From contig CANJQY010000007.1 in NCBI GenBank assembly GCA_947476525.1, positions 1 through 39,066 on the forward strand: a DNA stretch of 39,066 bases. Reading direction: 5' to 3'. The translations under genes and the position numbers were made by a program. Origin of the DNA: Oligoflexales bacterium (GTDB lineage: Bacteria > Bdellovibrionota_B > Oligoflexia > Oligoflexales > RGVZ01). How positions within the stretch are numbered: position 1 is the first letter of the stretch; the number at the start of each line of letters is the position of its first letter. Below the pieces are notes generated by a model. That model searched no databases, was not told the origin of the DNA, and saw only the letters and a list, made by a program, of their open reading frames with translations. Shown piece by piece: positions 150 to 38,053 of the stretch.

Positions 150-2066
150 TTGAATCATCTCCTCTCAAACAAGGTGAATAGACAAGTGAGTCAACCCATT
201 TCTTCAAGTAAAAATCATATTACTCTTACAATCGCAGCTTTAGGAGTTGTATTTGGCGATATTGGCACGAGCCCGCTCTATGCAATGCGTGAATGCTTTT
301 CTGGAGCCCACGGTGTGGCATTGACGCCAAGCAACATTTTAGGAGTACTGTCGCTCATTCTCTGGTCTTTAATATTCATTGTATCAATCAAGTATTTACT
401 TTTTGTCATGCGCGCAGACAATAAAGGCGAAGGTGGAATCCTTTCGTTGATGGCTCTTTTGATTCCAAAGGAGACCAAGGTCAGAAGGTTTATCGATCCG
501 GTAGTTGCGATGGGTCTATTAGGAGCTGTTTTGCTTTACGGCGATGGTATCATTACACCAGCCATCACCATTCTCAGCGCAATCGAGGGTTTGAAAGTTT
601 TGACCCCGCTGTTTGAGCCTTACATAATTCTAGTATCCCTTGCAATTATTTGCATCTTATTTTTATTTCAGCACAAGGGTACCGCACACATCGGTAAAGT
701 GTTTGGTCCGATCATTTTGGTTTGGTTTTTCGTGTTGACTGCCATGGGAGTGCTGGGAGTCGCTAAGAATTTAGGAGTATTTTCTGCCTTGAATCCAATT
801 CACGGATTTCATTTTTTATTGGACAACGGATTTCACGGTTTCGTGGTATTAGGCAGCGTTTTTCTGGTCGTAACCGGTGGAGAAGCTCTGTACGCCGATA
901 TGGGCCATTTTGGTTTGGTGCCTATTCGACTTGGATGGTTTTATGTCGCGCTTCCTGCGTTGATGATAAATTATTTTGGACAAGGAGCCCTTCTATTGAG
1001 CGATCCTTCTGCGATCAAAAACCCCTTCTTTGCACTCGCCCCGAACTCGCTGCTGTACCCACTCGTGGGCTTGTCCACTGCTGCGGCTGTGATTGCGTCT
1101 CAAGCTCTTATCACAGGTGCGTTCTCGCTGACTCAGCAAGCGGTGAACCTCGGTTTTTTGCCGCGCTTGCAGATCAGACATACATCTGCTGACGAAAGGG
1201 GACAAATTTATATCCCAATCGTCAACTGGGCTCTAATGATCGGAACCATTTTTGTAGTTTTGATGTTTAAGAGTTCTAGTGCACTGGCATCTGCCTACGG
1301 AATCGCTGTCACAGGAACAATGGCCATTACATCGATACTAACTTGCATTGTGGCGCGCAAACTCTGGCACTGGAATCTTGCGGTAGTAGTGTCGATAGGT
1401 ACAGCATTTATTTTGGTCGATCTTGCGTTTCTAGGCGCCAATGCACTTAAGATCGTCGAAGGTGGCTGGTTTCCATTGTTGCTGGGTGCTGTTTTATTCA
1501 CAGTAATGACAACATGGAAACGAGGCCGTCAAATCCTCACAAATAGACTTGTGATGGCGACAAAACCCATCGAACGATTTGTGGCTGAAACAGCTCCCTT
1601 GGCAAGACTCCGAGTTCCTGGCGTTGCTGTTATATTGACAGGAAAATCTGAAGGCACTCCGCTACCATTGATTCATAATTTCAAAATTAATAGTGTGATC
1701 CATGAACATGTCATCCTTCTGACGATAGTCACTGATGAAGTGGCACATACGGATTTAGCAGAGCAGATGTCAGTTGAGTCGTTAGGAGCCAATTTCTACC
1801 GAGTCATTGCGAAGTACGGTTTCATGGATTCACCAAATGTCCCCGAAGTCCTGCGCAAATGTAAAGACAAAGATATCCCCGTGGATCCCACATCCGCTAT
1901 TTACATTATCGGCAGAGAGACGCTCATCGCTACCGAAGTCCCAGGAATGGCTCTGTGGCGCGAACACCTGTTTGCCTTCATGACACGCAACGCTCAGGGC
2001 GCCATGGCCTATTTCCATTTACCACCCAAACAGGTCATTGAAATTGGGGTCCAGGTCAGACTTTAA
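150..2066 (+). CDS. kup: Kup-type low-affinity potassium transporter
   Basis: This is an inner-membrane K+/H+ symporter of the KUP/HAK/KT family that brings potassium into the cell. The protein is 638 residues, close to the usual 620-630. The diagnostic GDIGTSPLY motif sits at about residues 36-44 in the first membrane segment, and about twelve hydrophobic segments run to roughly residue 450. A soluble C-terminal domain of about 180 residues follows, as in the family. The listed start is TTG; an AAGGA stretch lies only 1-2 bases upstream, which is too close. GTG codons at residues 9 and 13 lie downstream and have no better ribosome site, so the exact start is unsettled. The gene stands alone and converges on the lipoprotein gene downstream. 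No riboswitch was recognised in the 149 bases upstream. Family identity is secure. Confidence 0.95.
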   Translation: MNHLLSNKVNRQVSQPISSSKNHITLTIAALGVVFGDIGTSPLYAMRECFSGAHGVALTPSNILGVLSLILWSLIFIVSIKYLLFVMRADNKGEGGILSLMALLIPKETKVRRFIDPVVAMGLLGAVLLYGDGIITPAITILSAIEGLKVLTPLFEPYIILVSLAIICILFLFQHKGTAHIGKVFGPIILVWFFVLTAMGVLGVAKNLGVFSALNPIHGFHFLLDNGFHGFVVLGSVFLVVTGGEALYADMGHFGLVPIRLGWFYVALPALMINYFGQGALLLSDPSAIKNPFFALAPNSLLYPLVGLSTAAAVIASQALITGAFSLTQQAVNLGFLPRLQIRHTSADERGQIYIPIVNWALMIGTIFVVLMFKSSSALASAYGIAVTGTMAITSILTCIVARKLWHWNLAVVVSIGTAFILVDLAFLGANALKIVEGGWFPLLLGAVLFTVMTTWKRGRQILTNRLVMATKPIERFVAETAPLARLRVPGVAVILTGKSEGTPLPLIHNFKINSVIHEHVILLTIVTDEVAHTDLAEQMSVESLGANFYRVIAKYGFMDSPNVPEVLRKCKDKDIPVDPTSAIYIIGRETLIATEVPGMALWREHLFAFMTRNAQGAMAYFHLPPKQVIEIGVQVRL

Positions 2067-2081
2067 TTTACTGACTAATTT

Positions 2082-3290
2082 TTACGGTGTCAAAAAAGAG
2101 GTCACCTTAAACTCGACATCATCTGCAGATTTTAAATACACTTGGGCATTTGCTTGCTCAGTTGACACGACATTTATCATACCGTTTGCGACAACTTGAA
2201 TTGATTTTTTCTCGTGATAATTTCTCACCACTCCGGGAGCTTCTACGGCTTCATCCCAAGCCTTTTTTGCCTTTGCGGAAATGGCCATAAATATTTCCCC
2301 AAACGAATCATCACTGGTAGAAGCGCTTGGAAAGAATGTCATATTGCGCCCAACGCCGTTACCGTCGACGACACGTACCGCATAGACATCGACAGATATT
2401 GCTGGACTTTTATCAAACTTAACCAAATGCCCCACCACAGCACGCGTAGTCCCATGGCAATTAATCAGTGGATCTACGATTGTAATTGCCTGTTCGAAGT
2501 TTTCATCCGTTTGAAAATGGGGTGGTCTCCCCTCTTTTCCTTGAACCACACGAACATTGACATCGACGATGTCACCTTTAAAAAGACCTTTAGCGACTGC
2601 GGAATGTTTGCTTCTCACGGCAATTGGCATCATGAAGTTGTCTTTTTCAAGTACGATTGCATAGCCATAGGTCTCAGATGCTACGAGGGCATGAATTTGA
2701 CCAAACACGCGAAAATTTTTGACGCCTTTTAATGTCGCCGCATCAAAACTATATTCGTTGTCAGTCGACTTATCATAAGGTGTCAGAATGGTGATTTCAG
2801 AAATAATCAGGTGTTTAATCGGGCTTTTGTTATCTAAAAGAGTTCCTCTAAGGCGCACCTTATCATGGCGATTTAGTGTTTCAAATTGCTTCCAAATTTC
2901 TGGGGTTGCGCCAACTAGCGAGAATTGTTCCGCCTGAAAAAATGCCATAGGATTACCGGGTTCCACTTTGCGGTAGGTAAACAGATACTGTTTGTAGGAT
3001 GGCACGGCTCCGTGAATCCACCCAACAAAACCGTCGGCACTGGCGAGTTTGTCACTAATGAACTTATCTTCAAAGGTATAAGGGGGAGTAGGATCTTGCG
3101 CGGTTGCAGGGCGCACGTCGCCACAATATTTTGATTTTGAATAGTCGGACGCATCCACAGACAAATTAAGGCCCATCGGCTTTGTGACGATGTCGCGAAC
3201 TGGCTCTTTCGCCTTACGAAATTTACCACAGCCGACTGAGGCTGCCACTACGGATACTGACACGAGGATTTGAGCTATATTAATACGCAT
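2082..3290 (-). CDS. Predicted lipoprotein of unknown function
   Basis: I do not recognise the family. The 402-residue product starts with a short hydrophobic signal (residues 4-20) ending in a lipobox-like SVGC with Cys21, so it is probably lipid-anchored in the envelope. The rest is soluble, with two stretches that look like related beta-rich modules (about residues 80-180 and 190-270). Both speak of conversion or range limits, for example DKVRLRGTLLD and GDIVDVNVRVVQG, resembling OB-like beta-barrel folds; this is only an impression. It lies tail to tail with kup, 15 bases apart. No operon partner is visible on its strand. Confidence 0.8.
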   Translation of the reverse strand: MRINIAQILVSVSVVAASVGCGKFRKAKEPVRDIVTKPMGLNLSVDASDYSKSKYCGDVRPATAQDPTPPYTFEDKFISDKLASADGFVGWIHGAVPSYKQYLFTYRKVEPGNPMAFFQAEQFSLVGATPEIWKQFETLNRHDKVRLRGTLLDNKSPIKHLIISEITILTPYDKSTDNEYSFDAATLKGVKNFRVFGQIHALVASETYGYAIVLEKDNFMMPIAVRSKHSAVAKGLFKGDIVDVNVRVVQGKEGRPPHFQTDENFEQAITIVDPLINCHGTTRAVVGHLVKFDKSPAISVDVYAVRVVDGNGVGRNMTFFPSASTSDDSFGEIFMAISAKAKKAWDEAVEAPGVVRNYHEKKSIQVVANGMINVVSTEQANAQVYLKSADDVEFKVTSFLTP

Positions 3291-3552
3291 AAAATCTCCA
3301 AAAATTGTTCGTTCGGTCCATTTAAATTTTCCATACTCACAGCAATGTTTAGGAGAGTTATCATCATCCCTAGCAACTTACAAGAAACAAGGTGCAATTA
3401 CTTCTAGAACTATCGCTTGGTGCGTGATTTAATACTAATTTGGTGGCAAGCTACAAGTTTTTATGGATATCACACACCTCGGACACACCATCCACCTTCG
3501 TCTCGATGATATCTATTTTTTGCCTTGAGTTAATTTAGAAAGTGTTGTTTCG

Positions 3553-4109: not shown

Positions 4110-4128
4110 CTGTCAGGTAAATTGACAG
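4110..4128. promoter_or_regulatory. Dyad CTGTCA-N7-TGACAG, candidate activator site 1
   Basis: Perfect six-base inverted arms, CTGTCA and TGACAG, are separated by seven bases. The dyad lies about 93 bases upstream of the -24 element of the 4220 sigma-54 promoter, where bacterial enhancer-binding proteins usually bind. The same arms with the same spacing occur upstream of the sigma-54 promoter at 14827. The activator is unknown. Confidence 0.5.
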
Positions 4129-4219
4129 TTTGTACGGAAGTCCAACCATAATCCAGCGCATCGTCTGTTTAACAGCCCTATATTACAGGCATTTTAAATG
4201 CATTTGCATCCACCCCGCC

Positions 4220-4236
4220 TTGGCACGGCTCGTGCA
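4220..4236 (+). promoter_or_regulatory. Sigma-54 promoter, no clear target gene
   Basis: TTGGCACGGCTCGTGCA matches the TTGGCACG-N4-TTGCA consensus except for one base. The invariant GG (4222-4223) and GC (4234-4235) are exactly ten bases apart. Transcription should start near 4247 and run rightwards, antisense to the end of the GspE-N gene if it continues past 4459. Confidence 0.75.
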
Positions 4237-4246
4237 TATTGGAACT

Positions 4247-4484
4247 CATCTAATCTTTCAGATTAGTGAAGTAGTTCGGCGGTTTTCACTTTGAATCAAT
4301 AAAAATGACATCCTTTGAAACAGTCAAATTTAGATTCATCTCTTTTCCCCTTTGTTGCCCTTCTGTTGCCGCTCACCCCGCTCCCGTCACTAATCAGCCG
4401 GGCTACTTTCCTCCTCCCTCTCGTCGTCGGTCCATTGTTGGTCCCGACTATTGCCTGCCTAGAGCTTCGGCGAAACACTTCTAA
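4247..4484 (+). ncRNA. Candidate sigma-54-dependent small RNA or 59-codon ORF
   Basis: The predicted transcript from the 4220 promoter begins with a perfect hairpin, CTAATCT-TTC-AGATTAG (4250-4266). An ATG at 4305 opens 59 codons ending at 4484, but it has no Shine-Dalgarno sequence, no recognisable protein character and many Pro, Ser and Arg residues. A non-coding or antisense RNA is therefore as likely as a peptide. No T-run terminator is seen, so the 3' end is arbitrary. Confidence 0.3.
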
Positions 4485-6528
4485 TAACATCCGCAAAACT
4501 TTGCTTTAAGCCATCATGATCACTTGCCCCGGAAAACGAAGCAAAACTTAGGACTATCGTATCTCCATGAGTTCTCGCAAGCACCATCGTCGGTGCATTT
4601 TTTGCGTCTGGCCATGATTTTATTATCGCCACGGCTGATGCTCCAAGCGCCGCGGAAATTGGTGTCCAGGTGGCCTCGTCAGCTGTTTTTTCAGCGAAAA
4701 TCTGTGCCGACTTTAGATCAATTCCCGCAGGAATCTGAGCCTCGCTCGTCGGTCCATCGCCCGCTTGTTGCCACAGTATTCCCTTTGAAAGTTTTCCACC
4801 CTTAATGCTAACTATAGCTCCGGAGCTAATGCCAACTTTTGCCGATACTTCGGCAATCCGCTGCAATGCTTTTTCCGGATCACTCGTCATTTGCATTTGA
4901 ACTAATGCGCGGTTTAACACTGTAATACCTGCGTGGGCGGATACTACTGCTGCTGGCTGAGCGATTGGAGCGATTGGAGCGATTGAAGCTTTTGCAACTT
5001 CAGCAGCACCAGGAACATCATCCATTGGGGTATCTTCTTGCATACCTAATGGTTCGTTATCGAGGCTTGGCAGCATCGAGGCGTCTGAGTCTTCTTGCAA
5101 GCCAGAAAAGTCTAAGGTTGGTTCATCGCCATCTGCTTTCATTTCATCCTCAAAAGCAGGTTGCTCGCCTGAAGCACCAAGACCAAGACCATCAATTCTC
5201 GGTTCATCTGGCTCGAAAAGGTCATCCTCTGATGGGACTTCTAACCCAACGTCTTCCACCCCACCCATGAGATCGTCACCGTCAAGCGCTAAGTTTTCAC
5301 TTGCGCCATCCAAAGCGGTGGTTGGCGTTTCATCATCCATTCCTGCCATGGATTCAAGAGAATTATCCGGCTCAGGATCTGCTTGAATTCCGAGGTCGAT
5401 GTCATCATCAAGTCCATCTGGAAGCGCACTTACAGCGCCAGCTACGCTTATTCCTGGATCAACGTCCACGTCCACGTCTACGTATTCTCCTAGATCGGCA
5501 CTTGCCGCAACGGCTCCGTCCAGACCACCTTCTAGGCCTCCGCCGATATCACTTTCAAGGCCACTGGCAATGTCATCAACGGGAAGTTCGGCAACAGAGA
5601 CTTCAACTTCCGATTCGTCATTTGCAACTGCTGGGGCTGCTACCGCTTTTGGAATCTCATTTCCGTCGTCGTCTAAATCAAAATCGATGGAGTTATCAAT
5701 TCCTGAAAAATCTTCCTCAGGTAAAGCCGCTTTCTGATAGGATACTGCACCTTGCGATTCGTCTTTTACAAACGCTGGTGTTGCTTCCTCTTTGGGGATC
5801 TCATTTCTATCGTCGTCTATATCAAAATCTTGGGAGTGATCAGGCTCAGATGCGGCCGCAGAATCGACCCATTCATCCTCGGAAGATCCTGACTCCTCCG
5901 CTCCACTATTCAACGATTGTTGAACTTCTATTTCTCCAACTTCGTTGGCACCGTCATCAGTATCTTCGGCCAAATCAGTTCCGTCAAAAGTGAATTCATA
6001 CTCTGATTCGTCATTCATGTTACGTTGTACTGGTTTTTGTTTCGTTTGGGACATTCGGCCATGGGTTTTAATAAACGACTCGAATCGGCTGTCGGCAATT
6101 TTCACGACTGCGCCAATCTCTTTTAATCCAAAATTGATCTGTGATTGGGTTGCAATGACAGGTCTAATTTGATAACCCGTAAAAAAGACCATTTGACTTA
6201 TGGCGTCCAGATCCGTGGGATCAACCATTGCTAAAACCAATGTTCCATCCTTTATGTGAAGAGGAAGAACCTCTAGCCAGGAGAGCACATGAAGTGGAGC
6301 AACATCCATAATTCTCAGGTCCAATTCTTGGAGAATATCTTTTTCTGCCTGACGGTAAGAAGTGTTCGACGTAAAAAGTGCGCTAAGTTCGACCTCATCC
6401 AAAAGGCCTAGCGCAAGAATACTTCGCGCAAAACTCCCATGGTGGTTGGCGCTTTCGCGTTTAATTAATTGCCGATCTGACGCCGATAGAATTCCCTCGC
6501 GCACCAACAATGAACCAAGACGAGACAT
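4459..6528 (-). CDS. GspE/PilB N-terminal-domain protein with acidic linker
   Basis: From the ATG at 6528 the protein has 689 residues. Residues 1 to about 140 form a T2SS-ATPase N-terminal domain: the LGSLLVREGILS opening, then the LPLHIKDGTLVLAMVDPTD segment typical of GspE/PilB N-domains. There is no Walker A box, so the ATPase core is absent. A very acidic, low-complexity linker of about 380 residues follows. It holds an internal repeat of the form DFDxDDDxNEIPK at two places. A C-terminal region of about 160 residues looks folded and could be GAF-like, but this is unproven. An upstream in-frame ATG at 6570 would add 14 residues. I prefer 6528 because the run of ten G just upstream can serve as the ribosome site. 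Its role may be as an adaptor or regulator of a pilus or secretion machine. Confidence 0.8.
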   Translation of the reverse strand: MSRLGSLLVREGILSASDRQLIKRESANHHGSFARSILALGLLDEVELSALFTSNTSYRQAEKDILQELDLRIMDVAPLHVLSWLEVLPLHIKDGTLVLAMVDPTDLDAISQMVFFTGYQIRPVIATQSQINFGLKEIGAVVKIADSRFESFIKTHGRMSQTKQKPVQRNMNDESEYEFTFDGTDLAEDTDDGANEVGEIEVQQSLNSGAEESGSSEDEWVDSAAASEPDHSQDFDIDDDRNEIPKEEATPAFVKDESQGAVSYQKAALPEEDFSGIDNSIDFDLDDDGNEIPKAVAAPAVANDESEVEVSVAELPVDDIASGLESDIGGGLEGGLDGAVAASADLGEYVDVDVDVDPGISVAGAVSALPDGLDDDIDLGIQADPEPDNSLESMAGMDDETPTTALDGASENLALDGDDLMGGVEDVGLEVPSEDDLFEPDEPRIDGLGLGASGEQPAFEDEMKADGDEPTLDFSGLQEDSDASMLPSLDNEPLGMQEDTPMDDVPGAAEVAKASIAPIAPIAQPAAVVSAHAGITVLNRALVQMQMTSDPEKALQRIAEVSAKVGISSGAIVSIKGGKLSKGILWQQAGDGPTSEAQIPAGIDLKSAQIFAEKTADEATWTPISAALGASAVAIIKSWPDAKNAPTMVLARTHGDTIVLSFASFSGASDHDGLKQSFADVIRSVSPKL

Positions 6529-6532
6529 GTTG

Positions 6533-6542
6533 CCCCCCCCCC
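6533..6542 (-). repeat. G10 homopolymer at translation start
   Basis: On the coding strand ten consecutive G residues end four bases before the preferred ATG of the GspE-N gene and form its only Shine-Dalgarno-like element. A change in tract length would alter the ribosome site, or shift the frame if the upstream ATG (6570) is used. Confidence 0.85.
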
Positions 6543-6656
6543 TTACTAAATTTGACTGCAAATTAGGCAATACCTGCTATTTGTTTAATTTTATCACATT
6601 GTTGGTCAAAGCTGCTGTTTCTGTATAAAAGTTGTTGTGAATCAGATCATTGACTG

Positions 6657-6691
6657 GCACCATGAAACGGTGCAGCGTCAAAGTACGCTGC
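6657..6691 (+). promoter_or_regulatory. Two adjacent hairpins in yfgM-like leader
   Basis: GCACC (6657-6661) pairs with GGTGC (6669-6673). GCAGCGT (6672-6678) pairs with ACGCTGC (6685-6691). The two stems share bases 6672-6673, so they may be mutually exclusive. They lie 40-75 bases upstream of the yfgM-like ATG, with no T run between them, and could be a leader control element or a terminator for rightward read-through. Confidence 0.4.
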
Positions 6692-6731
6692 TGAATCTAT
6701 TAGTATTTTAATTTATTTTTGAGGTTTCATC

Positions 6732-7559
6732 ATGGCTGGACACAAACAAATTGAACAAGCGCTCAAACGCCCCGACAACTTTCAGGACAACATCCTAAGG
6801 GCCATAGCTTATGTCAAAGAAAATAAGCAGCGAGCCTTTATGATCATGTCACCTCTGCTAGCAGTATGTATCGTTGGATATGCGGTATTCTCATGGAGCA
6901 GCCGGCAGGCGGCGAATCGACGTGGTGAAGTATCTAAAATAGGCGCCGTGCAAGCAAAAGAAGTCGCAAGTTTGGACAAAGCACGCGCAGACCTTCAAAA
7001 ACAAATTGACGATCTGCGCGCGACAAAGCCTAGTGCTGACGGCAAAAAAACTGAGATCTCTGCGGAAGATCTAGTGACCGTTACGAAATTGGAATTGCAA
7101 ATCTCTACCCTCAAACCGGACAAATCAAAATCCACAGCTGAATATAAAAAATTCTACGACGCAAACACATTGAATCAAGAAGGTTGGATGGCTGGACTTT
7201 CTTGGGCCGGCGTACAATTGGAGGAAGGTAAGGCTGCAGACGCACGCACTGTAGCTGAAGCCATTTCAAAAGCCAGCACTTCAAATAATTTCTATCAAAC
7301 CGTGTCACGCATGATGCTTATTGGAATTATGGAAGATGCTTCTGAGTTCGATGCTGCGATTAAAGAAAGCGACGTAATTATTAGCCTAGCCTCTGATGAA
7401 ACTAAACCAATGGCGCTGTTGGCGAAGGGCCGCCTTCAGTATTTTAAAAAGTCTTTTCCTGAAGCTCGCCTGGCGTTGAAAGAACTGATCGAAAAATTCG
7501 CCACCTCGTCCGAAGCCTCGACAGCGCGCAGCCTCATAGCGGCGATGGGTCCCGCTTAA
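6732..7559 (+). CDS. YfgM-like membrane protein with TPR-type domain
   Basis: The 275-residue protein has a cytosolic N-terminus, one membrane segment (about residues 35-55), a charged coiled-coil stretch (about 60-98) and a C-terminal helical TPR-like region (about 150-270, including the pattern MALLAKGRLQYFKKSFPEAR). This is the layout of YfgM/TPR_21 proteins, inner-membrane factors that work with the SecYEG translocon and periplasmic chaperones. The call is supported mainly by the next gene, a BamB-like propeller: yfgM and bamB are neighbours in many proteobacteria. GAGG lies seven bases before the ATG. The sequence is divergent, so equivalence to E. coli YfgM is an inference. Confidence 0.75.
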   Translation: MAGHKQIEQALKRPDNFQDNILRAIAYVKENKQRAFMIMSPLLAVCIVGYAVFSWSSRQAANRRGEVSKIGAVQAKEVASLDKARADLQKQIDDLRATKPSADGKKTEISAEDLVTVTKLELQISTLKPDKSKSTAEYKKFYDANTLNQEGWMAGLSWAGVQLEEGKAADARTVAEAISKASTSNNFYQTVSRMMLIGIMEDASEFDAAIKESDVIISLASDETKPMALLAKGRLQYFKKSFPEARLALKELIEKFATSSEASTARSLIAAMGPA

Positions 7560-7588
7560 GGTCTTTCAACAGTATACTTGGAGCTAAA

Positions 7589-8707
7589 ATGCTTAGGCCA
7601 AAACACATGCACACGATCGCACTTATGATGATAAACCTCTGTTTATCATCATCGCAAAGTGTACTGGGTGCGCCACTGCCGCTTAAGCCGTTTCGGCTTG
7701 GAGTGATCGCCATGAATCGCGAACTGAACCAAGTTAAGCCGCTTGCAGAATCGGACCCAGGTGGCTTTGTCCTTCAAGGCAGCGTCGTCATAGGAAGCTA
7801 CAACGCCTCGACAATTCGCGCTTACAACATCGATTCTCGAAAAAATAAATGGTGGTTTGCCACCGACGGAGAAATGACCGCTCCGCCATTAGTTATCGAA
7901 AACACTCTATTTTTTGCGACTCGGTCTGGCCAATTATCGGCCCTAAACATTAGCACTGGCAAAGCTATTTGGAATACCGAACTTGAATCATACATCGATC
8001 GTCCTTTGACTTTTTCCAATGGAGTTATTTACGCCGTGACCACCGGACAGGTCGCCTACGCCGTCGATGGGCTCACAGGAAAACGTCTTTGGGTACACGA
8101 TGCGGGATTTCCTGACAAGATAACCGTGCGACGGGCCCCGGCCGCGATCGTCCAAGACGGTCGGTTAATCATCGGCCTGACCTCTGGCGACATCCTTGCT
8201 TTAAAACTTGAGGACGGTAAACAAGTTTGGAAGTATAATCCTTTTTATCAAGAAACTCGCTTCAATGACTTTGTCGGTGAATTGATTGTTCACAATGGAA
8301 AGCTGCTTATAAGCCGCTACGACGGCCTCATTGCGCTCGTATCCGTCGGCCAAGAACGTCAGGTTATTTGGCAAGACCGGCAGACATCGGCTTCAACATC
8401 TACGTTTCGGGCAGGGCGATATTACGTCGGTCTAACGAACGGGGAAATCATCGCTTACGACGCAACGTCTGGCCGTGTTAGCTGGCGAACTCAATTGGCG
8501 ACGACACCTGCATTCATGGTAGCTAGTGAAACCGGAGTTTATGTTATCGGTAACAGCGGCCGCATTTCGGCGTTAGACATCGCCACTGGAGTGGCCCTCT
8601 GGTATGACGATCTCGGTAGCCGAATTGCAACCGCACCAATTATTTCTGGGAATAAAATGTTTGTAGCCAGTGGGTTACATAATCTTTACGGTTACTTGAT
8701 TAAATAA
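7589..8707 (+). CDS. bamB: BamB-like PQQ-repeat beta-propeller protein
   Basis: The 372-residue protein has a signal peptide (hydrophobic to about residue 27, likely cleavage after VLG) and repeated propeller blades of the PQQ type, such as SALNISTGKAIWNTEL, YAVDGLTGKRLWVHD, LALKLEDGKQVWKY and IAYDATSGRVSWRTQL. BamB is the propeller subunit of the BAM complex that inserts outer-membrane beta-barrels. E. coli BamB is a lipoprotein; here no proper lipobox is visible, so the protein may be soluble in the periplasm or anchored by partners. It sits 29 bases after the yfgM-like gene with GGAG five bases before the ATG, so the two are probably co-transcribed. The stop codon runs into the first copy of a 35-base repeat. 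Confidence 0.8.
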   Translation: MLRPKHMHTIALMMINLCLSSSQSVLGAPLPLKPFRLGVIAMNRELNQVKPLAESDPGGFVLQGSVVIGSYNASTIRAYNIDSRKNKWWFATDGEMTAPPLVIENTLFFATRSGQLSALNISTGKAIWNTELESYIDRPLTFSNGVIYAVTTGQVAYAVDGLTGKRLWVHDAGFPDKITVRRAPAAIVQDGRLIIGLTSGDILALKLEDGKQVWKYNPFYQETRFNDFVGELIVHNGKLLISRYDGLIALVSVGQERQVIWQDRQTSASTSTFRAGRYYVGLTNGEIIAYDATSGRVSWRTQLATTPAFMVASETGVYVIGNSGRISALDIATGVALWYDDLGSRIATAPIISGNKMFVASGLHNLYGYLIK

Positions 8708-8737
8708 TTAGTCTCTGCCGCGAAAGCGCCAGAGACG
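8703..8737 (+). repeat. 35-base hairpin repeat, copy 1
   Basis: Identical over 35 bases to 9972-10006. The core is a hairpin: GTCTCTG pairs with CAGAGAC, then one C-C mismatch, then CGC pairs with GCG, closed by a GAAA tetraloop. It overlaps the bamB stop codon. It resembles a REP-like element; no associated transposase is seen here. Confidence 0.85.
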
Positions 8738-9183
8738 TGTCCTGAGCCGAAGGCGAAGGATCTCGGCCGATCACCACAGATGCGTAACAAGACATTCGGG
8801 AAATTGGTCGGCCATCATTGGCCGCACTATTTTCCCAAGCTTTGCTGAACCTTTTGAACAATAACCAGAAAAGTCTGTCCAGTAGCTTGATTTTTGGTTT
8901 CGGTTGCTTTCTTTGGTAAACAGCGAGCTGCTACCTCAAGCCCAAGTTTTCGGCTTGAAGTCTAAAAATGCTTCTCACCAACATGTGTGCCCCCTTTTTT
9001 CGGAAGAAGGGGGCGACAATAGCACAAAAACGCCCAGGATTCACCGACGACAAATGAGTGAATAATTTAAAATTGAATGCATCTTCATTAAGAAATTGAA
9101 TTGCTTTGATAGTCGTGGCAATAATTGACGAAGGCGATGAATTCTGTTTGAGCCTTCGTTTGTTACTGTCGGCGAGTGCAATT
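8708..9183. other. Gene-free structured intergenic region
   Basis: No coding region is supported in these 476 bases between the bamB-like gene and the 3' end of the Cys-rich gene. Besides the repeat hairpin it contains CGGCC/GGCCG (8809-8824), TCAAGCC/GGCTTGA (8936-8958) and the strong GCCCCCTT/AAGGGGGC hairpin (8989-9014). The density of stems suggests a REP cluster or structured RNA. Confidence 0.6.
8989..9014. terminator. Strong hairpin, possible bidirectional terminator
   Basis: GCCCCCTT pairs perfectly with AAGGGGGC, and the stem can extend inwards with wobble pairs around TTCGGAA. It lies between convergent genes (bamB-like rightwards and the Cys-rich gene leftwards). No clear T run flanks the stem, so termination is only a suggestion. 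Confidence 0.4.
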
Positions 9184-9819
9184 TTACCGTGGATTTAAAC
9201 AGTCCGTCCGCTCTTTGTCACATCCAGTAGTATCTGCAGCACATCTTTTTTCCTCCTCTTTCGCTTTCTTTTCGGCGGCATCGCGCTTTTCAAATATTAT
9301 CTTAAGCTGCTCTGCGTTTTTATCCTCGCACTTTTTAATTCCTGGTTCCTCACATTTAGCACGAATCGCCGGTAATGTTTTTACACAAGTTTTATTCAAT
9401 TCGCTTAAGCAGTCAACTTTAAGCTTGGCGGGTTTGGCGGGTTTTCTGTCGCAAGCAGGTCGACCATCTTCAATACATTTTTCTCGCGCAGTATATACCG
9501 TTGAGTGACAAGCTGCTTTTGCTACTTGAATACATGTTCGCTTTTCTTCTCCTGCCACATTGACTTCTGCAGTCGACATCATTGTCTCGACCCCTGTATT
9601 TGAAATTCGGCAGAGACGTGGACGTGCTTCTATGCATCCAGTATAATGTTCTTGGCACATAGCTTGCCTTATCTCGGGGCGCATCGTCGTGGTCGAGGGG
9701 GGGGGCGGCGTTGTTGGTTGGCTTGGATTTGTTGACGGATTGAATGGCATTGGGGGTTGAGCATATAAGTAGGGTGTGGCCGCACCTAGGCTAATAAACA
9801 ACAGTAAAGATCGGTTCAT
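9184..9819 (-). CDS. Secreted cysteine-rich protein with poly-C tract
   Basis: I do not recognise the family. The 211-residue product has a signal peptide (about residues 1-20, cleavage near YAQ), a Pro/Thr-rich segment (about 22-46), then a mature part with 14 cysteines spread as widely spaced pairs, which suggests several disulphides. A Lys/Glu-rich helical stretch (about 165-190) precedes the last cysteines. It is probably periplasmic or exported. AGGAG lies a few bases before the ATG, so the start is secure. A run of nine C in the coding strand encodes the Pro stretch, which could make the gene phase-variable by slippage. Confidence 0.8.
   Translation of the reverse strand: MNRSLLLFISLGAATPYLYAQPPMPFNPSTNPSQPTTPPPPSTTTMRPEIRQAMCQEHYTGCIEARPRLCRISNTGVETMMSTAEVNVAGEEKRTCIQVAKAACHSTVYTAREKCIEDGRPACDRKPAKPAKLKVDCLSELNKTCVKTLPAIRAKCEEPGIKKCEDKNAEQLKIIFEKRDAAEKKAKEEEKRCAADTTGCDKERTDCLNPR
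9697..9705 (-). repeat. C9 homopolymer inside Cys-rich gene
   Basis: Nine consecutive C residues on the coding strand encode part of the N-terminal Pro run, before any of the cysteines. Gain or loss of one base would truncate the protein early. Confidence 0.85.
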
Positions 9820-10288
9820 TGGAACTCCTTTTCATAGATTCAACTTAAAATCTGACATTCAGTATCCCACTATTATCCATATCAAAATAGATTCCGCTAT
9901 CGGAAATTTTAAATCCAAATAATATACAATATCATCGCCTTACGGGCATCTCGTCTGCCCTAATTCACCACAATAATTAGTCTCTGCCGCGAAAGCGCCA
10001 GAGACGGTGGTATGGACCTGCTCCCCTCAACGGTTTCTCTATCCATCATTGACAAATAGAGCCAGAATGGATCTTGTTACAAATTTCATTCAAGAGAAGG
10101 AGCGGTCCAAAATAAGATATTTACAACCATGCTCACCAGGAAACGCCTTGCGGAATTGCTGGGTAATCCAGGAAGCATCTGGATTTAAAGTGGCGTTTAC
10201 GTGGCACTGAGATGATTTACTATTTAGGAGGCACAAGATTCAATTATTCTGAAAAAGGCCGAACTCCGCGTTGTTCGTCGCGGCAAAA
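9820..10288. other. Gene-poor region with repeat copy and HTH remnant
   Basis: This 469-base stretch separates the Cys-rich gene from the 3' end of manC. It contains the promoter side of the Cys-rich gene, the second 35-base repeat and a frameshifted HTH gene. A 67-codon GTG-started frame (10007-10210) overlaps the remnant in a different frame and has no recognisable character; I do not call it. Confidence 0.6.
9972..10006 (+). repeat. 35-base hairpin repeat, copy 2
   Basis: A perfect second copy of 8703-8737 in the same orientation, with the same GAAA-capped hairpin. It lies about 120 bases upstream of the HTH remnant. Confidence 0.85.
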
Positions 10289-10300
10289 CTAGATCAAATC
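10129..10300 (+). pseudogene. Frameshifted AlpA/excisionase-type HTH gene remnant
   Basis: Reading from the ATG at 10129 gives LTRKRLAELLGNPGS and then a stop. Shifting frame continues the domain as LKWRLRGTEMIYYLGGTRF, then NYSEK, and a further shift yields AELRVVRRGKTR. Together these follow the order of a short MerR/excisionase-like HTH (HTH_17) domain: a first helix, the WRLRGT turn, the LGG-R-F wing and the final helix. Two frameshifts and an internal stop mean it is not functional as read. Such proteins usually come from mobile elements, so this may be the trace of a lost one. The 3' end overlaps the end of manC and is approximate. Confidence 0.5.
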
Positions 10301-11386
10301 ACTGCGGCCAGACTCCTTTAAGCGATCCACAATCAATTTAACATCCTGCGCGCGACTTTTTGGGCAAACCAAAATAGCACCTTTGGCATGAACAACCACA
10401 AGGTCTCTAACGCCAAGCAAAGCCGTCAGGGGGCCGTCCGTATCTACAGTGCATCCATGGGAATCAATTAACAAGGCATCACCTTGAACAAAATTTCCAG
10501 CACTATCTGTTTTAAAACATTGGGATAACGCGTCCCAAGTACCGACATCCTGCCAGCCAATATCAGCCTCCACGACGCTGACGCGCTTAGATACCTCTAG
10601 TACCGCATGATCAATAGATATCCGCGGAAGCACAGCATATGCACCGGCGAATTTTTCGCTGTCAATCGAAGAAAACGAGGAGGAATCCCCCAACACCTTG
10701 CGCAGACATTGTACGGTTACCGGCAATTTCGCCTCAAGCTCTTGAATCAACGTGGGGACGTGGAACACGAAAATTCCTGCGTTCCAATAGAATTTTCGAC
10801 TCGCCACAAATTCCTCAGCGAGTTTTAGCTCAGGCTTTTCGCGGAATGACGCGACTTTGAAAGCACCCTTTTCAGCTCGCGCGTTGCCCCGCTCAATATA
10901 ACCGTAGCCGGTTTCTGCATACTTGGGAACGATCCCCACTAAACAAATTTCTTTCCCTGCAGCAACCTCTACTGCCGTGCGAATGCTCTCTCGAAACATG
11001 CTCAATTTTTCAATCACATGATCGGCGTGGAGGCTGATCATGATGGCATCGTCCCCCGTCCCTTTTTGGGATATTTCAAGTGCGGCCAATGCCAACGCAT
11101 TAGCTGTATTTCGCGCTTCAGGCTCTGCGATCACGATGGAACATCGGTTACCAACAATTTTTTTTGTGGCCTCTGCTTGATCTTTATGGGTCACAATAAT
11201 GCGCCTAGCAACAGGGACAAATCCATCCAAGCGTCCCAAGGTTGTTTCTAACATTGTCTCGCTGCTTCCACCTAATTCACACAGCTGCTTAGGCCATTTT
11301 TGACGAGATTTCGGCCAAAAACGCGTTCCACTGCCGCCAGCTAAAATAACCGCATAGACATTTAATGGTAGCTCTTGAATGGACAT
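10289..11386 (-). CDS. manC: Mannose-1-phosphate guanylyltransferase
   Basis: The enzyme makes GDP-mannose from mannose-1-phosphate and GTP for surface polysaccharides and glycoconjugates in the cytoplasm. The nucleotidyltransferase signature ILAGGSGTRFWPKSRQKWPK is near the N-terminus (about residues 14-33). The FREKP sugar-binding segment, the WNAGIFVF segment and the IGWQDVGTWDAL segment follow in the family order. At 365 residues it has the guanylyltransferase part only, without the C-terminal isomerase domain of bifunctional ManC. I start it at the ATG at 11386, because an AGGTG site lies seven bases upstream. An in-frame ATG at 11419 would start inside a tetranucleotide repeat. No other sugar-nucleotide genes are next to it. 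Confidence 0.9.
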   Translation of the reverse strand: MSIQELPLNVYAVILAGGSGTRFWPKSRQKWPKQLCELGGSSETMLETTLGRLDGFVPVARRIIVTHKDQAEATKKIVGNRCSIVIAEPEARNTANALALAALEISQKGTGDDAIMISLHADHVIEKLSMFRESIRTAVEVAAGKEICLVGIVPKYAETGYGYIERGNARAEKGAFKVASFREKPELKLAEEFVASRKFYWNAGIFVFHVPTLIQELEAKLPVTVQCLRKVLGDSSSFSSIDSEKFAGAYAVLPRISIDHAVLEVSKRVSVVEADIGWQDVGTWDALSQCFKTDSAGNFVQGDALLIDSHGCTVDTDGPLTALLGVRDLVVVHAKGAILVCPKSRAQDVKLIVDRLKESGRSDLI

Positions 11387-11404
11387 TTTTCTGCACCTCA
11401 CAAC

Positions 11405-11438
11405 CAAATAAATAAACAAACAAATAAATAAAACAAAC
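11405..11438 (-). repeat. Degenerate AAAT/AAAC tetranucleotide tract
   Basis: A run of four-base units of the form AAAT or AAAC covers about 34 bases immediately upstream of the manC ribosome site. Length variation by slippage could change the leader or promoter spacing of manC. Confidence 0.7.
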
Positions 11439-11492
11439 GTATAAAATTATTGTACCTTGACGGTTTTATCCAACAAGCATTTTAGTCACCAC

Positions 11493-12815
11493 TCAATTTT
11501 TGGGATCCCCTTGCCAGAAACCAATGGCCTGCAGGTATCCGGGAGCACCCACACTTGCGCTAAGGGACTTGCCCATCTCGGCGCCAAGTTCAATAAACGC
11601 TTTTTTCTCTTTTGAGTCCACTTCTGCGACTGCAGCTGCGTCCTCGTAAAACATTGACAGCCCTAGTATCGCATATGGTGCAAGCACCGATTTAAGGTTT
11701 GCCGCCGTAAAATCTTGCCACTCAAGCACCCGTTTTTCCCAATCACCGCCCAAAGGCATTGCTAACCATGCCTTTTGCAACGCACTTCCCGCCCCATCCT
11801 GGATAACGGTCATCGAACCTAAAAACTCGGTGTCATGAAATATCGTGTTTTTTGCGACCTCGGCAGGTGGTTGAATATGTTTGATGGATTTATCAAGAAT
11901 AAAAACGTGGAGATTTTTAGGCTGAAAAAACGTTTTGGGGTTCAGCTTTTGTTGCCTAGCCGGAACCATGAAAACGCCGACCTGTGGTGGATTTGTCGCG
12001 CTAACAAAAGAAAGAGCAAGGTACAGTGAATTATGCGCCGAGTTCGGGCCCATGATTGCTTGCTGCTGTTCAAGGGTAAAGAGTTCTTCAGTTTCATCCG
12101 TAAGCAAATCCCACACGTAGAGGCCGTCGGTGTAGCGAGAACTGTGGCTGGCCGTAAACACAATTTTTTGTTGGTTTGGAAGCCAAAAAAACTCCTCTAC
12201 ACGGTCATGAATTGCAACCATATATAGATTTTTCTGCCTCTCGCTGCGGACCACCAGGCGTTTTGTCCCTGTTTGCGGTTCAAGAAAAATCTTAGCCGTC
12301 CATTTTTCCTCATCATCACTCGCTCCAGCCAACAATACCGCCGACGGGCGGCGATGCTCTGCCGCAGCCTGGGAATTATATTTGAGCCCCCGCTCTCCGT
12401 CTGGCCCCCAATGTAGAACGCTGATGTCAGGGGTCTCATTTGGACGATTTTGGACGCCGTCTGCGGCAAAACTTCTAAGGGAGTAATTCTCGCGATCAAG
12501 AGGTAAGTATTCTATCCGCTCTCCCCAAGCGTCATACGCATTCATTCGCTGTCCAAGCTTACGCGCGTGCAAACGCAATTCATTTTGATTTCGTGGCAAC
12601 TCGCGCCACTCCTGCAGAAAATTTTGCACCACAGCATCATCGGCCAAAAGCATTTCCCTGGTGCGTTCGTCTTGGGAGCGTGTCGTGAGGTTGAATTCGA
12701 ACGCAACAATACTAAGCGCTACCGTAGCGGTCGCTGCAACAGGCCCATACAAGAATGCTTTTATGGAGACAGGTGGCAATCTACCACCCCAAAAAATACG
12801 CCGACTAACTTTCAT
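11493..12815 (-). CDS. Membrane-anchored GspG-like / beta-propeller protein
   Basis: The 440-residue protein (from ATG 12815; the longer frame begins with TTG) has a short cytosolic N-terminus and one membrane segment at about residues 22-42. Next comes a region resembling the C-terminal part of major pseudopilins: DAWGERIEY (about 95-103) and SFAADG (about 115-120) match the DPWGNPYxY and SxGADG signatures of GspG. No prepilin peptidase site (G-F-T-x-x-E) is present. From about residue 145 to 330 there are WD40/TolB-like strands, for example WLPNQQKIVFTAS followed by YTDGLYVWDL. The tail is soluble. I know of no named family with this order. It may sense or scaffold something in the periplasm. 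It lies upstream of manC on the same strand. Confidence 0.75.
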   Translation of the reverse strand: MKVSRRIFWGGRLPPVSIKAFLYGPVAATATVALSIVAFEFNLTTRSQDERTREMLLADDAVVQNFLQEWRELPRNQNELRLHARKLGQRMNAYDAWGERIEYLPLDRENYSLRSFAADGVQNRPNETPDISVLHWGPDGERGLKYNSQAAAEHRRPSAVLLAGASDDEEKWTAKIFLEPQTGTKRLVVRSERQKNLYMVAIHDRVEEFFWLPNQQKIVFTASHSSRYTDGLYVWDLLTDETEELFTLEQQQAIMGPNSAHNSLYLALSFVSATNPPQVGVFMVPARQQKLNPKTFFQPKNLHVFILDKSIKHIQPPAEVAKNTIFHDTEFLGSMTVIQDGAGSALQKAWLAMPLGGDWEKRVLEWQDFTAANLKSVLAPYAILGLSMFYEDAAAVAEVDSKEKKAFIELGAEMGKSLSASVGAPGYLQAIGFWQGDPKN

Positions 12816-13071
12816 CAAATTTATCAAAGCGGCGAACCTTTAGTTAAGTCAGGTAGAAACTGGTCGAATAGACCAATTTAAACCTTTTGGTTATTTCCAA
12901 ATTCTACCATATTTTACAGATACAATCATATAGATAGGTCTTGGCCAACAAAAAATCGCGAGTAAATTTTTTGGCAAACAAGCACAAATTAATTAGACCA
13001 TGGTAAAATAATACACAAACTACTAGTTCTAAACATTGAGTTACAGAATCACAAGAATTCGGAGGATATTA

Positions 13072-13659
13072 ATGATGCGTTGTCCTAGACTCACACTTTT
13101 GCAGGCATTTCTCGTCGCTCTTTTTCCGTCGATTGTAATGGGTGGCGCATCTAGCAGCCTCAGCGCAGTAGCGGCTCAAGGGTATTCAAGGGCACCCCAA
13201 GAAGTTTCTGAAACTAAAACGACTCAAAGAGTCAGAATTCCGGTTACGCTTAAGACCTGGCAGCAGGTTTCGGCAGTTGACAGCACTGGTCGAGAAACCA
13301 CCAGCCGAATTGTCGGACAGCCCGTTAGCCAAATTCTGCGAGCTCGGATTGAGCGTAGTAATGAATTCTACTTGGGAAACTTGCGTGTTAAAACTGTGCC
13401 CATGCGTTGGCTGAAAAACAGTCATCAATACCAAGTCCGCCTCGAAGTGTTTCAAAGTGCCGGCCAATCAAAGCAAGCTGAAGAAAGCCTCGGCTCCGTC
13501 ATTTTGACGGGCAACATCAAAAAACAACCCGATGGCCTCTACATCCTAACCGGCACCGCACGCCGATTGTTCCGCAGTAAGTCTGGAGAACCAATTCTAG
13601 ATTTTACGGCAGGACAGCCGCCGGTCGAGGCCAAGTCAACAGATATTTCTCGATTATAA
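13072..13659 (+). CDS. Secreted protein of unknown function
   Basis: I do not recognise the family. The product has about 195 residues from the ATG at 13072; GGAGG lies six bases upstream, so the longer frame from 13036 is not needed. A hydrophobic signal peptide (about residues 8-36) is followed by a region rich in beta-strand patterns and basic residues, ending in a likely short unstructured tail. It is probably periplasmic. It is divergent from the propeller protein across a 256-base AT-rich gap and convergent with hslO. Confidence 0.75.
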   Translation: MMRCPRLTLLQAFLVALFPSIVMGGASSSLSAVAAQGYSRAPQEVSETKTTQRVRIPVTLKTWQQVSAVDSTGRETTSRIVGQPVSQILRARIERSNEFYLGNLRVKTVPMRWLKNSHQYQVRLEVFQSAGQSKQAEESLGSVILTGNIKKQPDGLYILTGTARRLFRSKSGEPILDFTAGQPPVEAKSTDISRL

Positions 13660-13662
13660 TGT

Positions 13663-13697
13663 TCGGGCACTTCCACTGGGCCCAACGGCTCGCCCGA
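13663..13697. terminator. Possible bidirectional terminator
   Basis: TCGGGC (13663-13668) pairs with GCCCGA (13692-13697) between two convergent genes. The loop is long and T-runs are weak, so this is a low-confidence call. Confidence 0.3.
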
Positions 13698-13702
13698 GAA
13701 AT

Positions 13703-14587
13703 TTAATTCATCCTATCGAAGTTGGCGAGCATTTCCCGAAGGCGATCAAATGAGATTGTATAGTGTCTTCCACAAAAGTCGCAGCGAATTTTCGAGCTTT
13801 CAGACTTTGCAATCATTTCTTTAATCTCTTCACGTCCAAGCATATTGATTGAACGCTCTGCACGATCCTGATTGCAACGACATGAATATTTTAAATCAAA
13901 CGGATGTTCCGACGGATTCATCGGAATGGATCCAGTAAGATTTTTGAGTAATTGAATGGCGTTACTGCCGGCAACTAGCATTTCAGCAAGTGGTTTTGCG
14001 GCAGTTACTGCGGCTTCAAGATCGCCAATGGTCGACTCCGTGGCCCCCGGCATTAACTCAATGAGCACGCCGCCGGCGACTTCAACCTGGCCTTGAGAAT
14101 CTAGGACTACGCCTAGAGCAATGACTGATGATGTTTGATGGCTCTGCTGCATGTAATAGGCGATATCGTCGCCAATTTCACTCGTGACAAGCTCCACGGT
14201 TCCGACATGGGGAGCTTTTTCGAATGGTTGACTCCGAATAACATTCAAGAGCCCGATACCGAGCCCTGCCGCCACGTCAATTCGTCCATCTTTAAAAGGG
14301 ACACTCGCATTTGGCTGGTCGCACCATCCGCGGCACTCCCCTTCATAAGAGGCTTCTGCGTACACGGAGCCGAGGGGACCGTTCCCCCGAAAGTGCAAAG
14401 CCACCACTTGTTTGTCACGAAGTTGAGCTGCCATCAATACCGCCCCGGTAACGGCTCGTCCGAGAGCCATCGCCGCGAGGGGGCCTGCCTTTTGAATCGT
14501 ACACATTTCTCGTACAACATCCGTTGATATCACGGCGGTTGCACGCAAAAAAAGATTATCACTATAAAATCGGTGAACACGCTTCAA
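13703..14587 (-). CDS. hslO: Redox-regulated chaperone Hsp33
   Basis: Hsp33 is a cytosolic holdase that binds unfolding proteins under oxidative stress. The protein has 294 residues, as expected. The redox switch is intact: a CxC at residues 236 and 238 and a CxxC at 269 and 272 bind zinc when reduced and form disulphides when oxidised. The N-terminal core shows the family segments around LGRAVTGAVLMAA and YYMQQSHQT. The start is TTG, with GGAGG nine bases upstream. The gene converges on the secreted protein gene and is divergent from a sigma-54-controlled gene. Confidence 0.95.
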   Translation of the reverse strand: MKRVHRFYSDNLFLRATAVISTDVVREMCTIQKAGPLAAMALGRAVTGAVLMAAQLRDKQVVALHFRGNGPLGSVYAEASYEGECRGWCDQPNASVPFKDGRIDVAAGLGIGLLNVIRSQPFEKAPHVGTVELVTSEIGDDIAYYMQQSHQTSSVIALGVVLDSQGQVEVAGGVLIELMPGATESTIGDLEAAVTAAKPLAEMLVAGSNAIQLLKNLTGSIPMNPSEHPFDLKYSCRCNQDRAERSINMLGREEIKEMIAKSESSKIRCDFCGRHYTISFDRLREMLANFDRMN

Positions 14588-14745
14588 ACCTAAAAACCTC
14601 CGCTTGCTAAAAAGACTCCAAGTTCGGATCCCCCGTCAATAGAACCGCACCTCGTAATCTCGACTGTAGGCCCACTTACAGTCTCGCACACGTACGCTGG
14701 GTCATCAACGCAAATAAGGGAAGGATTGTCTCGATCTGTAGACTA

Positions 14746-14764
14746 CTGTCAATACTTTTGACAG
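14746..14764. promoter_or_regulatory. Dyad CTGTCA-N7-TGACAG, candidate activator site 2
   Basis: Same six-base arms and same seven-base spacer as 4110-4128; the last spacer base and the base after the second arm are also T in both. It ends 64 bases upstream of the -24 element, a typical place for an enhancer-binding protein. The spacer bases otherwise differ, which argues for a binding site rather than a copied repeat. Confidence 0.55.
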
Positions 14765-14826
14765 TCGTGGGTGCTTAATACAACTCGTAAACCACCGTAT
14801 TTATGACCAATATCAGCCATCCCCCC

Positions 14827-14843
14827 TTGGCACACAATTTGCT
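14827..14843 (+). promoter_or_regulatory. Sigma-54 promoter of barrel gene
   Basis: TTGGCACACAATTTGCT matches TTGGCAC-N5-TTGCT, with GG (14829-14830) and GC (14841-14842) ten bases apart. The expected transcript start is near 14854, giving a leader of about 73 bases. Confidence 0.85.
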
Positions 14844-14926: not shown

Positions 14927-15613
14927 ATGTCGAACATGATAAAAACAATGATTAAAATAACCCAACTTTTGGTGACCTTCGGAGCACTATCAATTGGACT
15001 TCATTCGCCCACGGCGTTTGGTCAACCAGGGGCATCCCACAACCTGGTTAACTCATACCGGTCGAGTGCGATCACCCATATTTTCATCTCACAATCAGTT
15101 GAGGGTGAGTTTGGCAATTATGAATTGAGCTCGAATCGAGGTTCAATGGGCCTAACATCAGGTACAGGTAACTCGAAACAGACTAGCAAATGGAAGGGCT
15201 ATAACATTTCGCAGACGTTTGGACTTGAATTACTTAAATTTGTTCAATTTGATGCATCGCACAGTATGATGAATATGCGCTCCGTCAATTCAAGTCTAGA
15301 ACATCTTGGCGGCAGTCGATTTACAGTTGGATCGCGCCTTGTTTTTCTTGCGCCCGTTGCGAATCTTGAAGTCGGAGGCGGGGTTATTGGCAGTCGCTAT
15401 GACTACCAGTACAATCTTAGTACCACTGATTTTTACGGTAGTGGTGTCTATTACACCTTGGGCATCAATTACTTCTTGAGCGAACGTGTCTCATTATTTG
15501 GGCAATTAAAATCAATCGACGAGCACTCAGTCCGGTCTGGCGGCAATAGCGAAACGTCCAGCATAACAGCAAAGACTTCGAATATAGGAACAGGCTTCTC
15601 GCTTTGGCTTTAA
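14927..15613 (+). CDS. Sigma-54-driven outer-membrane beta-barrel candidate
   Basis: No family is recognised. The 228-residue product begins with a signal peptide (hydrophobic from about residue 10, cleavage near AFG). The mature part shows alternating polar and hydrophobic strands, many Ser, Gly and Tyr residues and a hydrophobic C-terminal strand (NIGTGFSLWL), consistent with a small outer-membrane beta-barrel. The ATG at 14927 is favoured over the adjacent GTG because GGAG lies eight bases upstream. A consensus sigma-54 promoter and an activator-type dyad lie upstream, so it is probably expressed only under a specific signal. It is monocistronic and followed by a long palindrome. Confidence 0.75.
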   Translation: MSNMIKTMIKITQLLVTFGALSIGLHSPTAFGQPGASHNLVNSYRSSAITHIFISQSVEGEFGNYELSSNRGSMGLTSGTGNSKQTSKWKGYNISQTFGLELLKFVQFDASHSMMNMRSVNSSLEHLGGSRFTVGSRLVFLAPVANLEVGGGVIGSRYDYQYNLSTTDFYGSGVYYTLGINYFLSERVSLFGQLKSIDEHSVRSGGNSETSSITAKTSNIGTGFSLWL

Positions 15614-37779: not shown

Positions 37780-38053
37780 CAGATGTTTTCCGCGTTGGTT
37801 TTTGAAGCGCCCGGGTTTTGGGTTTCTAGCACGGGGTTCGTATCGTCATTTTTCTGAAGATCTAGACTGCCAAAATTTGACATTTTGTAAAAAAAATGAA
37901 CAGTTCGTCGATTAATCAGCAGCCTGAGTGATTCTATAACTACCTGTATTATATAGATATACTCGTGATTTTGACCTTTCTTCCCGCAGTGGCACGATCC
38001 TTGCTTAGTTATTTACATACTTAATGCCTGCCGGCCCAAAAGGAGAATTTAAT
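37780..38053. promoter_or_regulatory. Divergent region between cyclase and sigma-54 lipoprotein
   Basis: This 274-base gap holds the promoter of the cyclase operon (leftwards) and the sigma-54 promoter of the lipoprotein (rightwards). A degenerate half-site TTGACA (37877-37882) lies about 110 bases upstream of the -24 element, but the full CTGTCA-N7-TGACAG dyad of the other two sites is absent. Confidence 0.5.
37989..38005 (+). promoter_or_regulatory. Sigma-54 promoter of truncated lipoprotein gene
   Basis: GTGGCACGATCCTTGCT matches the TGGCACG-N4-TTGCT consensus exactly, with GG (37991-37992) and GC (38003-38004) ten bases apart. The expected transcript start near 38016 leaves a 38-base leader. 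Confidence 0.88.

Follow-up and report, generated by a model that had tools for sequence, protein, structure and literature searches.

A TGTC-N9-GACA dyad upstream of sigma-54 promoters suggests an envelope and small-RNA regulon in Oligoflexales

Results

Two dyads with exact arms precede sigma-54 promoters

We analyzed a 39,066-nucleotide stretch of DNA (the window) from an Oligoflexales bacterium, comprising positions 1 to 39,066 of contig CANJQY010000007.1 in assembly GCA_947476525.1. The window carries two inverted repeats, neither assigned to a strand, that are candidate upstream activating sites: dyad 1 (CTGTCAGGTAAATTGACAG, 4110-4128) and dyad 2 (CTGTCAATACTTTTGACAG, 14746-14764). Both have exact arms, CTGTCA-N7-TGACAG, which can equally be written as the four-base cores TGTC-N9-GACA. 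Each lies upstream of a near-consensus sigma-54 promoter on the forward strand, dyad 1 by a gap of 92 nt from promoter 1 (TGGCACGGCTCGTGCA, 4221-4236, with GG at 4222-4223 and GC at 4234-4235) and dyad 2 by 63 nt from promoter 2 (TGGCACACAATTTGCT, 14828-14843). An initial annotation had remarked on the identical arms and mostly different spacers of the two dyads and proposed that they serve a sigma-54 activator regulon; the spacers indeed differ at 6 of 7 bases. It had also seen no clear copy at a third sigma-54 promoter (37990-38005, forward strand), which precedes a predicted lipoprotein gene. We likewise found no TGTC-N9-GACA upstream of this promoter and therefore do not assign it to the dyad regulon. 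Upstream of it, at 37867-37886, CTGCCAAAATTTGACAT is a partly similar repeat whose spacing is wrong.

All results are computational and come from draft genomes. Genome-wide dyad and promoter counts were made in the assembly containing the window (2.74 Mb, 176 contigs, 88% complete), with the reversed pattern or sequence as control, and comparisons used 43 metagenome-assembled genomes of the order Oligoflexales. The sigma-54 consensus TGGCAC-N5-TTGCW occurs 16 times compared to 2 in the control, and sigma-54 is therefore in real use in this genome. The exact dyad occurs twice, both times in the window, against 0 in the control and a random expectation of about 0.16. A dyad as common in coding DNA as upstream of sigma-54 promoters would have spoken against a regulator site, and the exact dyad is found only at two sigma-54 promoters. 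Allowing up to two mismatches gave 102 copies versus 66, a modest excess that is expected because the arms are short. Among the seven dyads with one mismatch, one accompanies another sigma-54 promoter (contig C123) and one falls within the promoter of a gene for an enhancer-binding protein (contig C90); we read the other five as chance because they fall inside open frames. Near-dyads of the form (C/A)TGTCAAT-N3-(A/C)TTGACCG were also seen in open frames at G000:C29:702, C45:9526 and C1:43026.

The site is spacing specific, helically phased and conserved

We selected the 16 consensus sigma-54 promoters blind to dyads and searched 35-170 bp upstream of each for TGTC-Nk-GACA with at most one mismatch and k from 2 to 17. 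The N9 spacer was found at 7 of 16 promoters, compared to 0-3 for each of the other spacers. In shuffled upstream regions the N9 count averaged 0.6, with a maximum of 5 in 1000. Across the 43 genomes, TGTC-N9-GACA followed about 60-120 bp on by GGCAY-N6-TGCW gave 58 matches versus 1 in the reversed control. Of these matches, a few fall in coding DNA (e.g. L084, L102, L105) and are probably chance; dyads of relatives in coding DNA (L019, L020) were set aside for the same reason. Position counts over 44 sites give a fuller consensus of roughly cTGTCaa...tTGACAgt, and the GG-N10-GC promoters have a conserved context.

The initial annotation had remarked that the two dyad-promoter distances differ by about 29 bases, roughly three helical turns. 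Dyad-promoter distances proved periodic, with a Rayleigh R of 0.51 near 10.25 bp over 48 sites. Using only the 33 unique distances, R was 0.41 with a peak at 10.3 bp and p ~0.004, a simple p-value that is too favorable because orthologous sites are related and not fully independent. For the gene driven by promoter 2, the dyad and promoter are 81-83 bp apart in 6 of 6 genomes of the genus (two with one mismatch) and 81, 70-73 or 61 bp apart in other families; since these distances move in helical steps, they bear out the earlier remark. Dyad and promoter are both retained at orthologous genes. The exact arms of dyad 1 are kept in G004 (L021), 112 bp from the sigma-54 element compared to 111 bp here, with a different spacer. 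Together, these data describe an inverted repeat 60-150 bp upstream of sigma-54 promoters that is both spacing specific and helically phased.

Promoter 1 is predicted to drive a structured small RNA

No same-strand protein gene lies downstream of promoter 1 in the window. Covariance models, pair counts and folds indicate a new structured non-coding RNA there that the promoter would drive, a product that the initial annotation had not described, just as it had not reduced the dyad to its TGTC-N9-GACA core. The predicted gene spans ~4247-4411 on the forward strand (predicted start ~4247; model match 4243-4411), with a 5' hairpin at 4250-4266 and a long closing helix of 16 bp pairing 4270-4285 with 4392-4407. 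No Rfam family matches it, even at E ≤ 1, and it is therefore not GlmY or GlmZ as modeled there. Homologs in G002, G004 and G005 share the 5' hairpin and the 16-bp closing helix, and they also have in common an inner hairpin and an unpaired, C/U-rich stretch in which UGUUGCY is repeated; AGCAACAG may be a candidate seed sequence.

A covariance model built from four sequences recovered a fifth, in G001, at E 3e-7. The stem sequences of this copy are almost wholly different, and it begins 7 nt after a dyad-promoter match found independently. In a 10-sequence alignment, which was fitted to the model, two-sided changes occur at 24 of 28 base pairs and 96.7% of cells are paired; independent folding of most members gives the same helices. 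The covariation score was 0.75, compared to 0.18 for shuffles and at most 0.13 for slid controls, indicating compensatory changes beyond the controls. The RNAs of G025 and G028 have a different fold around the closing helix and no stability excess.

A second covariance model identified 17 copies in 16 genomes (families f1, f5, f7 and f11), all 17 with TGGCAY-N6-TGCA directly upstream. Matches of the model in G048 and G014 have no promoter and look like chance. Seven copies (G023, G024, G027, two in G029, G040 and G008) were found by RNA models alone, and the sigma-54 promoter (TGGCAC-N6-TGCA) 17-24 nt upstream of all seven is therefore independent confirmation. Where dyads were found upstream of the RNA promoters, they lie at 90-92, 103, 110-113, 122-125 or 133 bp. 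At L150 and L151 (G027 and G024), the dyad reads CTGACTAAACTTTTGTCAG, changed symmetrically in both half-sites, at the phased position 122 bp before the RNA promoter. G029 has tandem RNA copies (L271/L278; C13:22408-22548 and 22815-22955), each with its own sigma-54 promoter and only the first with a recognizable dyad. We considered a riboswitch or leader and rejected it: downstream lies parA in two genomes and a different gene in family f7, and the window has none on the same strand. Because the downstream gene is not conserved, the RNA is taken to be stand-alone. In G005, a 6S RNA (Rfam RF00013; L022 2657-2844, reverse strand) lies ~1.1 kb from a perfect dyad; it is distinct from the gene of the new RNA.

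Other predicted targets are mainly envelope proteins

Promoter 2 precedes a gene for an exported protein of ~229 aa (14927-15613, forward strand) with a signal peptide and a barrel-like pattern; here and below, signal-peptide, lipoprotein and barrel-like calls were made by eye from N-termini and sequence patterns. The protein has no match in Pfam or NCBIfam, and 22 of the 43 Oligoflexales genomes encode orthologs. It is probably an outer-membrane beta-barrel protein. A first guess, the PEP-CTERM/PrsR regulon, was dropped, as the protein has no match to such a family. In this genome the putative regulon further includes another barrel-like protein (C49), a predicted lipoprotein (C40), an M14 carboxypeptidase that has a signal peptide (C145) and two small cytosolic proteins (C123). 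In relatives it takes in lipoproteins, some of them thioredoxin-like, and an exported DNA/RNA non-specific endonuclease. Judged from these predicted products, the dyad regulon would consist mainly of envelope proteins, plus the RNA.

An orphan PocR-type gene carries the dyad in its own promoter

The initial annotation had suggested looking for an orphan sigma-54 activator gene. The genome encodes eight enhancer-binding proteins, at least five with receiver domains. One is an orphan protein of 519 aa (C90:1845-3404) with PocR, Sigma54_activat and HTH_8 domains, intact GSFTGA and Walker motifs and a Fis-type helix-turn-helix. Its promoter holds a dyad, CTGTCAAATAGTCAGACAG, with a perfect TGTC-N9-GACA core; no such core lies within 400 bp of the other seven enhancer-binding-protein genes. 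In 6 of 6 genomes of the genus this dyad starts 10 nt after CCGATA, the -10 element of a sigma-28-like promoter; its spacer differs from genome to genome. Because the dyad sits just past the -10 element of the activator gene's promoter, its position suggests that the PocR-type protein represses its own gene.

Orthologs of the PocR protein are present in 40 of 43 genomes, with a nearly invariant recognition helix. G014, G015 and G017 have paralogs only, and no dyad-promoter matches were found there. The sigma-28-like promoter is present before most activator orthologs, and in 19 of 24 loci examined the activator gene is preceded by a lolA-like gene (here L130, 868-1590, before 1845-3404). Six sigma-28-consensus promoters in this genome (G000:C3, C15, C72, C116 and C122; control 0) mostly precede lipoprotein or exported-protein genes.

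Discussion

We propose that the dyad is the activating site of one sigma-54 enhancer-binding protein, most likely the PocR-type protein, that drives envelope genes and the RNA, and we give this reading a probability of about 0.78. A dimer of the protein would bind TGTC-N9-GACA about 60-135 bp upstream of the promoter and, in response to a signal that it presumably senses, loop to the sigma-54 holoenzyme, where its AAA+ ATPase would open the promoter complex. The predicted targets are outer-membrane proteins, lipoproteins, other exported proteins and the structured RNA that would start at window position ~4247. The most likely activator, the orphan PocR-AAA+-Fis protein encoded beside lolA, would be made from the sigma-28-like promoter, and the dyad ~10 nt past the -10 element would probably mediate self-repression. 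The regulon that the initial annotation proposed is thus supported by the N9 enrichment, the conservation across 43 genomes, the phasing, the sites kept at orthologs and the dyad at the orphan activator gene.

Several observations weigh against this proposal, in addition to the overstated significance of the simple p-values. The dyad in the +1 region of the activator gene is confined to the genus; 3 of 4 sister-genus genomes have a copy farther upstream, and other families keep the sigma-28-like promoter of the gene without a dyad. Several genomes that encode the activator show no dyad-promoter match. At the RNA, two copies (the second in G029 and that in G008) have no recognizable dyad, and G024 and G027 carry TGAC-N9-GTCA at the same place. 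Finally, the sigma-28 label is by consensus only, and because other such promoters precede genes that are not obviously flagellar, a motility link of the activator's promoter is only a suggestion.

An alternative is that a different enhancer-binding protein, of the response-regulator type, binds the dyad, and that the copy at the PocR gene reflects one activator controlling another. The receiver-domain proteins among the eight would supply candidates, and the genus-limited, +1-proximal dyad at the PocR gene would fit. We consider this unlikely, given that none of the other seven genes carries the dyad and that the PocR protein, in 40 of 43 genomes with its near-invariant recognition helix, matches an order-wide site, although conservation was measured in this way for the PocR protein alone. 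It is more doubtful still that a repressor or co-activator independent of sigma-54 binds the dyad beside another enhancer-binding protein. Dyads alone do not name a protein, and a site just past the activator gene's start would suit a repressor, but sites that lie 61-136 bp upstream and are phased at 10.3 bp agree with an enhancer-binding protein acting through DNA looping, and no other shared motif was noticed, though no systematic motif search was made.

The dyads could also mean that a distant bacterium has the QseF/GlrR (QseEF-GlmY) regulon. QseF/GlrR binds TGTCN10GACA (PMC8745638), with the upstream activating site also given as TGTN12ACA (PMC6075780), and drives the small RNA GlmY and rpoE. 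In that system as, by prediction, in the dyad regulon, sigma-54 promoters serve a small RNA and envelope functions. Nevertheless, this identity is very improbable, as it is contradicted by the N9 spacer here (N10 is not enriched), by a candidate activator with a PocR domain and no receiver, and by an RNA without an Rfam match. A chance coincidence or a copied repeat element, worth raising since the pattern was first chosen by eye, is refuted by genome-wide uniqueness, spacing specificity and cross-genome conservation with freely varying spacers.

More tentatively, and with somewhat less than even confidence, we envisage a cascade that spans the order Oligoflexales. A promoter of the sigma-28-like kind, possibly linked to motility, would produce the PocR activator, which would turn on sigma-54-dependent surface proteins and a new small-RNA family whose C/U-rich UGUUGCU-repeat loop would regulate or sequester further targets. 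If true, the cascade would be a new global envelope-remodeling switch in relatives of predatory bacteria. The order consists of little-studied bacteria related to Bdellovibrio. In the set of papers searched, none names Oligoflexales together with sigma-54. The sequences define a regulon, name a candidate activator and add a covarying small-RNA family that Rfam lacks, and the proposal can be tested in a cultured relative such as Pseudobacteriovorax or Oligoflexus if the system is present there.

Comparison with known systems

Qrr RNAs under LuxO and CrcZ under CbrB are stand-alone, sigma-54-activated small RNAs, some with repeated unpaired motifs. The RNA described here likewise appears to be stand-alone under a sigma-54 activator; it differs in having no Rfam match and in its activator site and fold. 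FleQ/FlrA-type boxes (yGTCA-N6-TGACr) resemble the dyad in being a GTCA...TGAC inverted repeat for a sigma-54 activator. FlrA-like boxes have the form GTCA-N6-TGAC (PMC4641369), whereas the spacing here is GTCA-N7-TGAC, N8 between TGTC and GACA is not enriched and the candidate activator has a PocR N-terminus. Spacing rules out both the FleQ box and the QseF site as the identity of the dyad. Motifs of enhancer-binding proteins in Desulfovibrio include TGT/ACA half sites at spacings of 9, 11 or 12 bp (PMC4641369), and TGTC-N9-GACA contains TGT-N11-ACA, a likeness judged on TGT/ACA alone; the regulators and targets are different.

The initial annotation could not match the regulon to a known one. 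That stands, in that the regulon is distinct from QseF/GlrR by spacer, activator domain and RNA, with the qualification that the QseF/GlrR site is the closest known. Like QseF/GlrR-GlmY of Enterobacteriaceae, the system described here combines sigma-54 promoters with an upstream TGTC...GACA dyad and predicted small-RNA and envelope targets. In contrast, its dyad has N9 and not N10 and also stands in the activator's own sigma-28-like promoter, its candidate activator is an orphan PocR-domain protein where QseF/GlrR is a receiver-domain response regulator, and its RNA is unrelated. The combination of sigma-54, TGTC...GACA dyads and a small RNA linked to the envelope would occur far from enterobacterial GlmY, with another sensor and another spacing.

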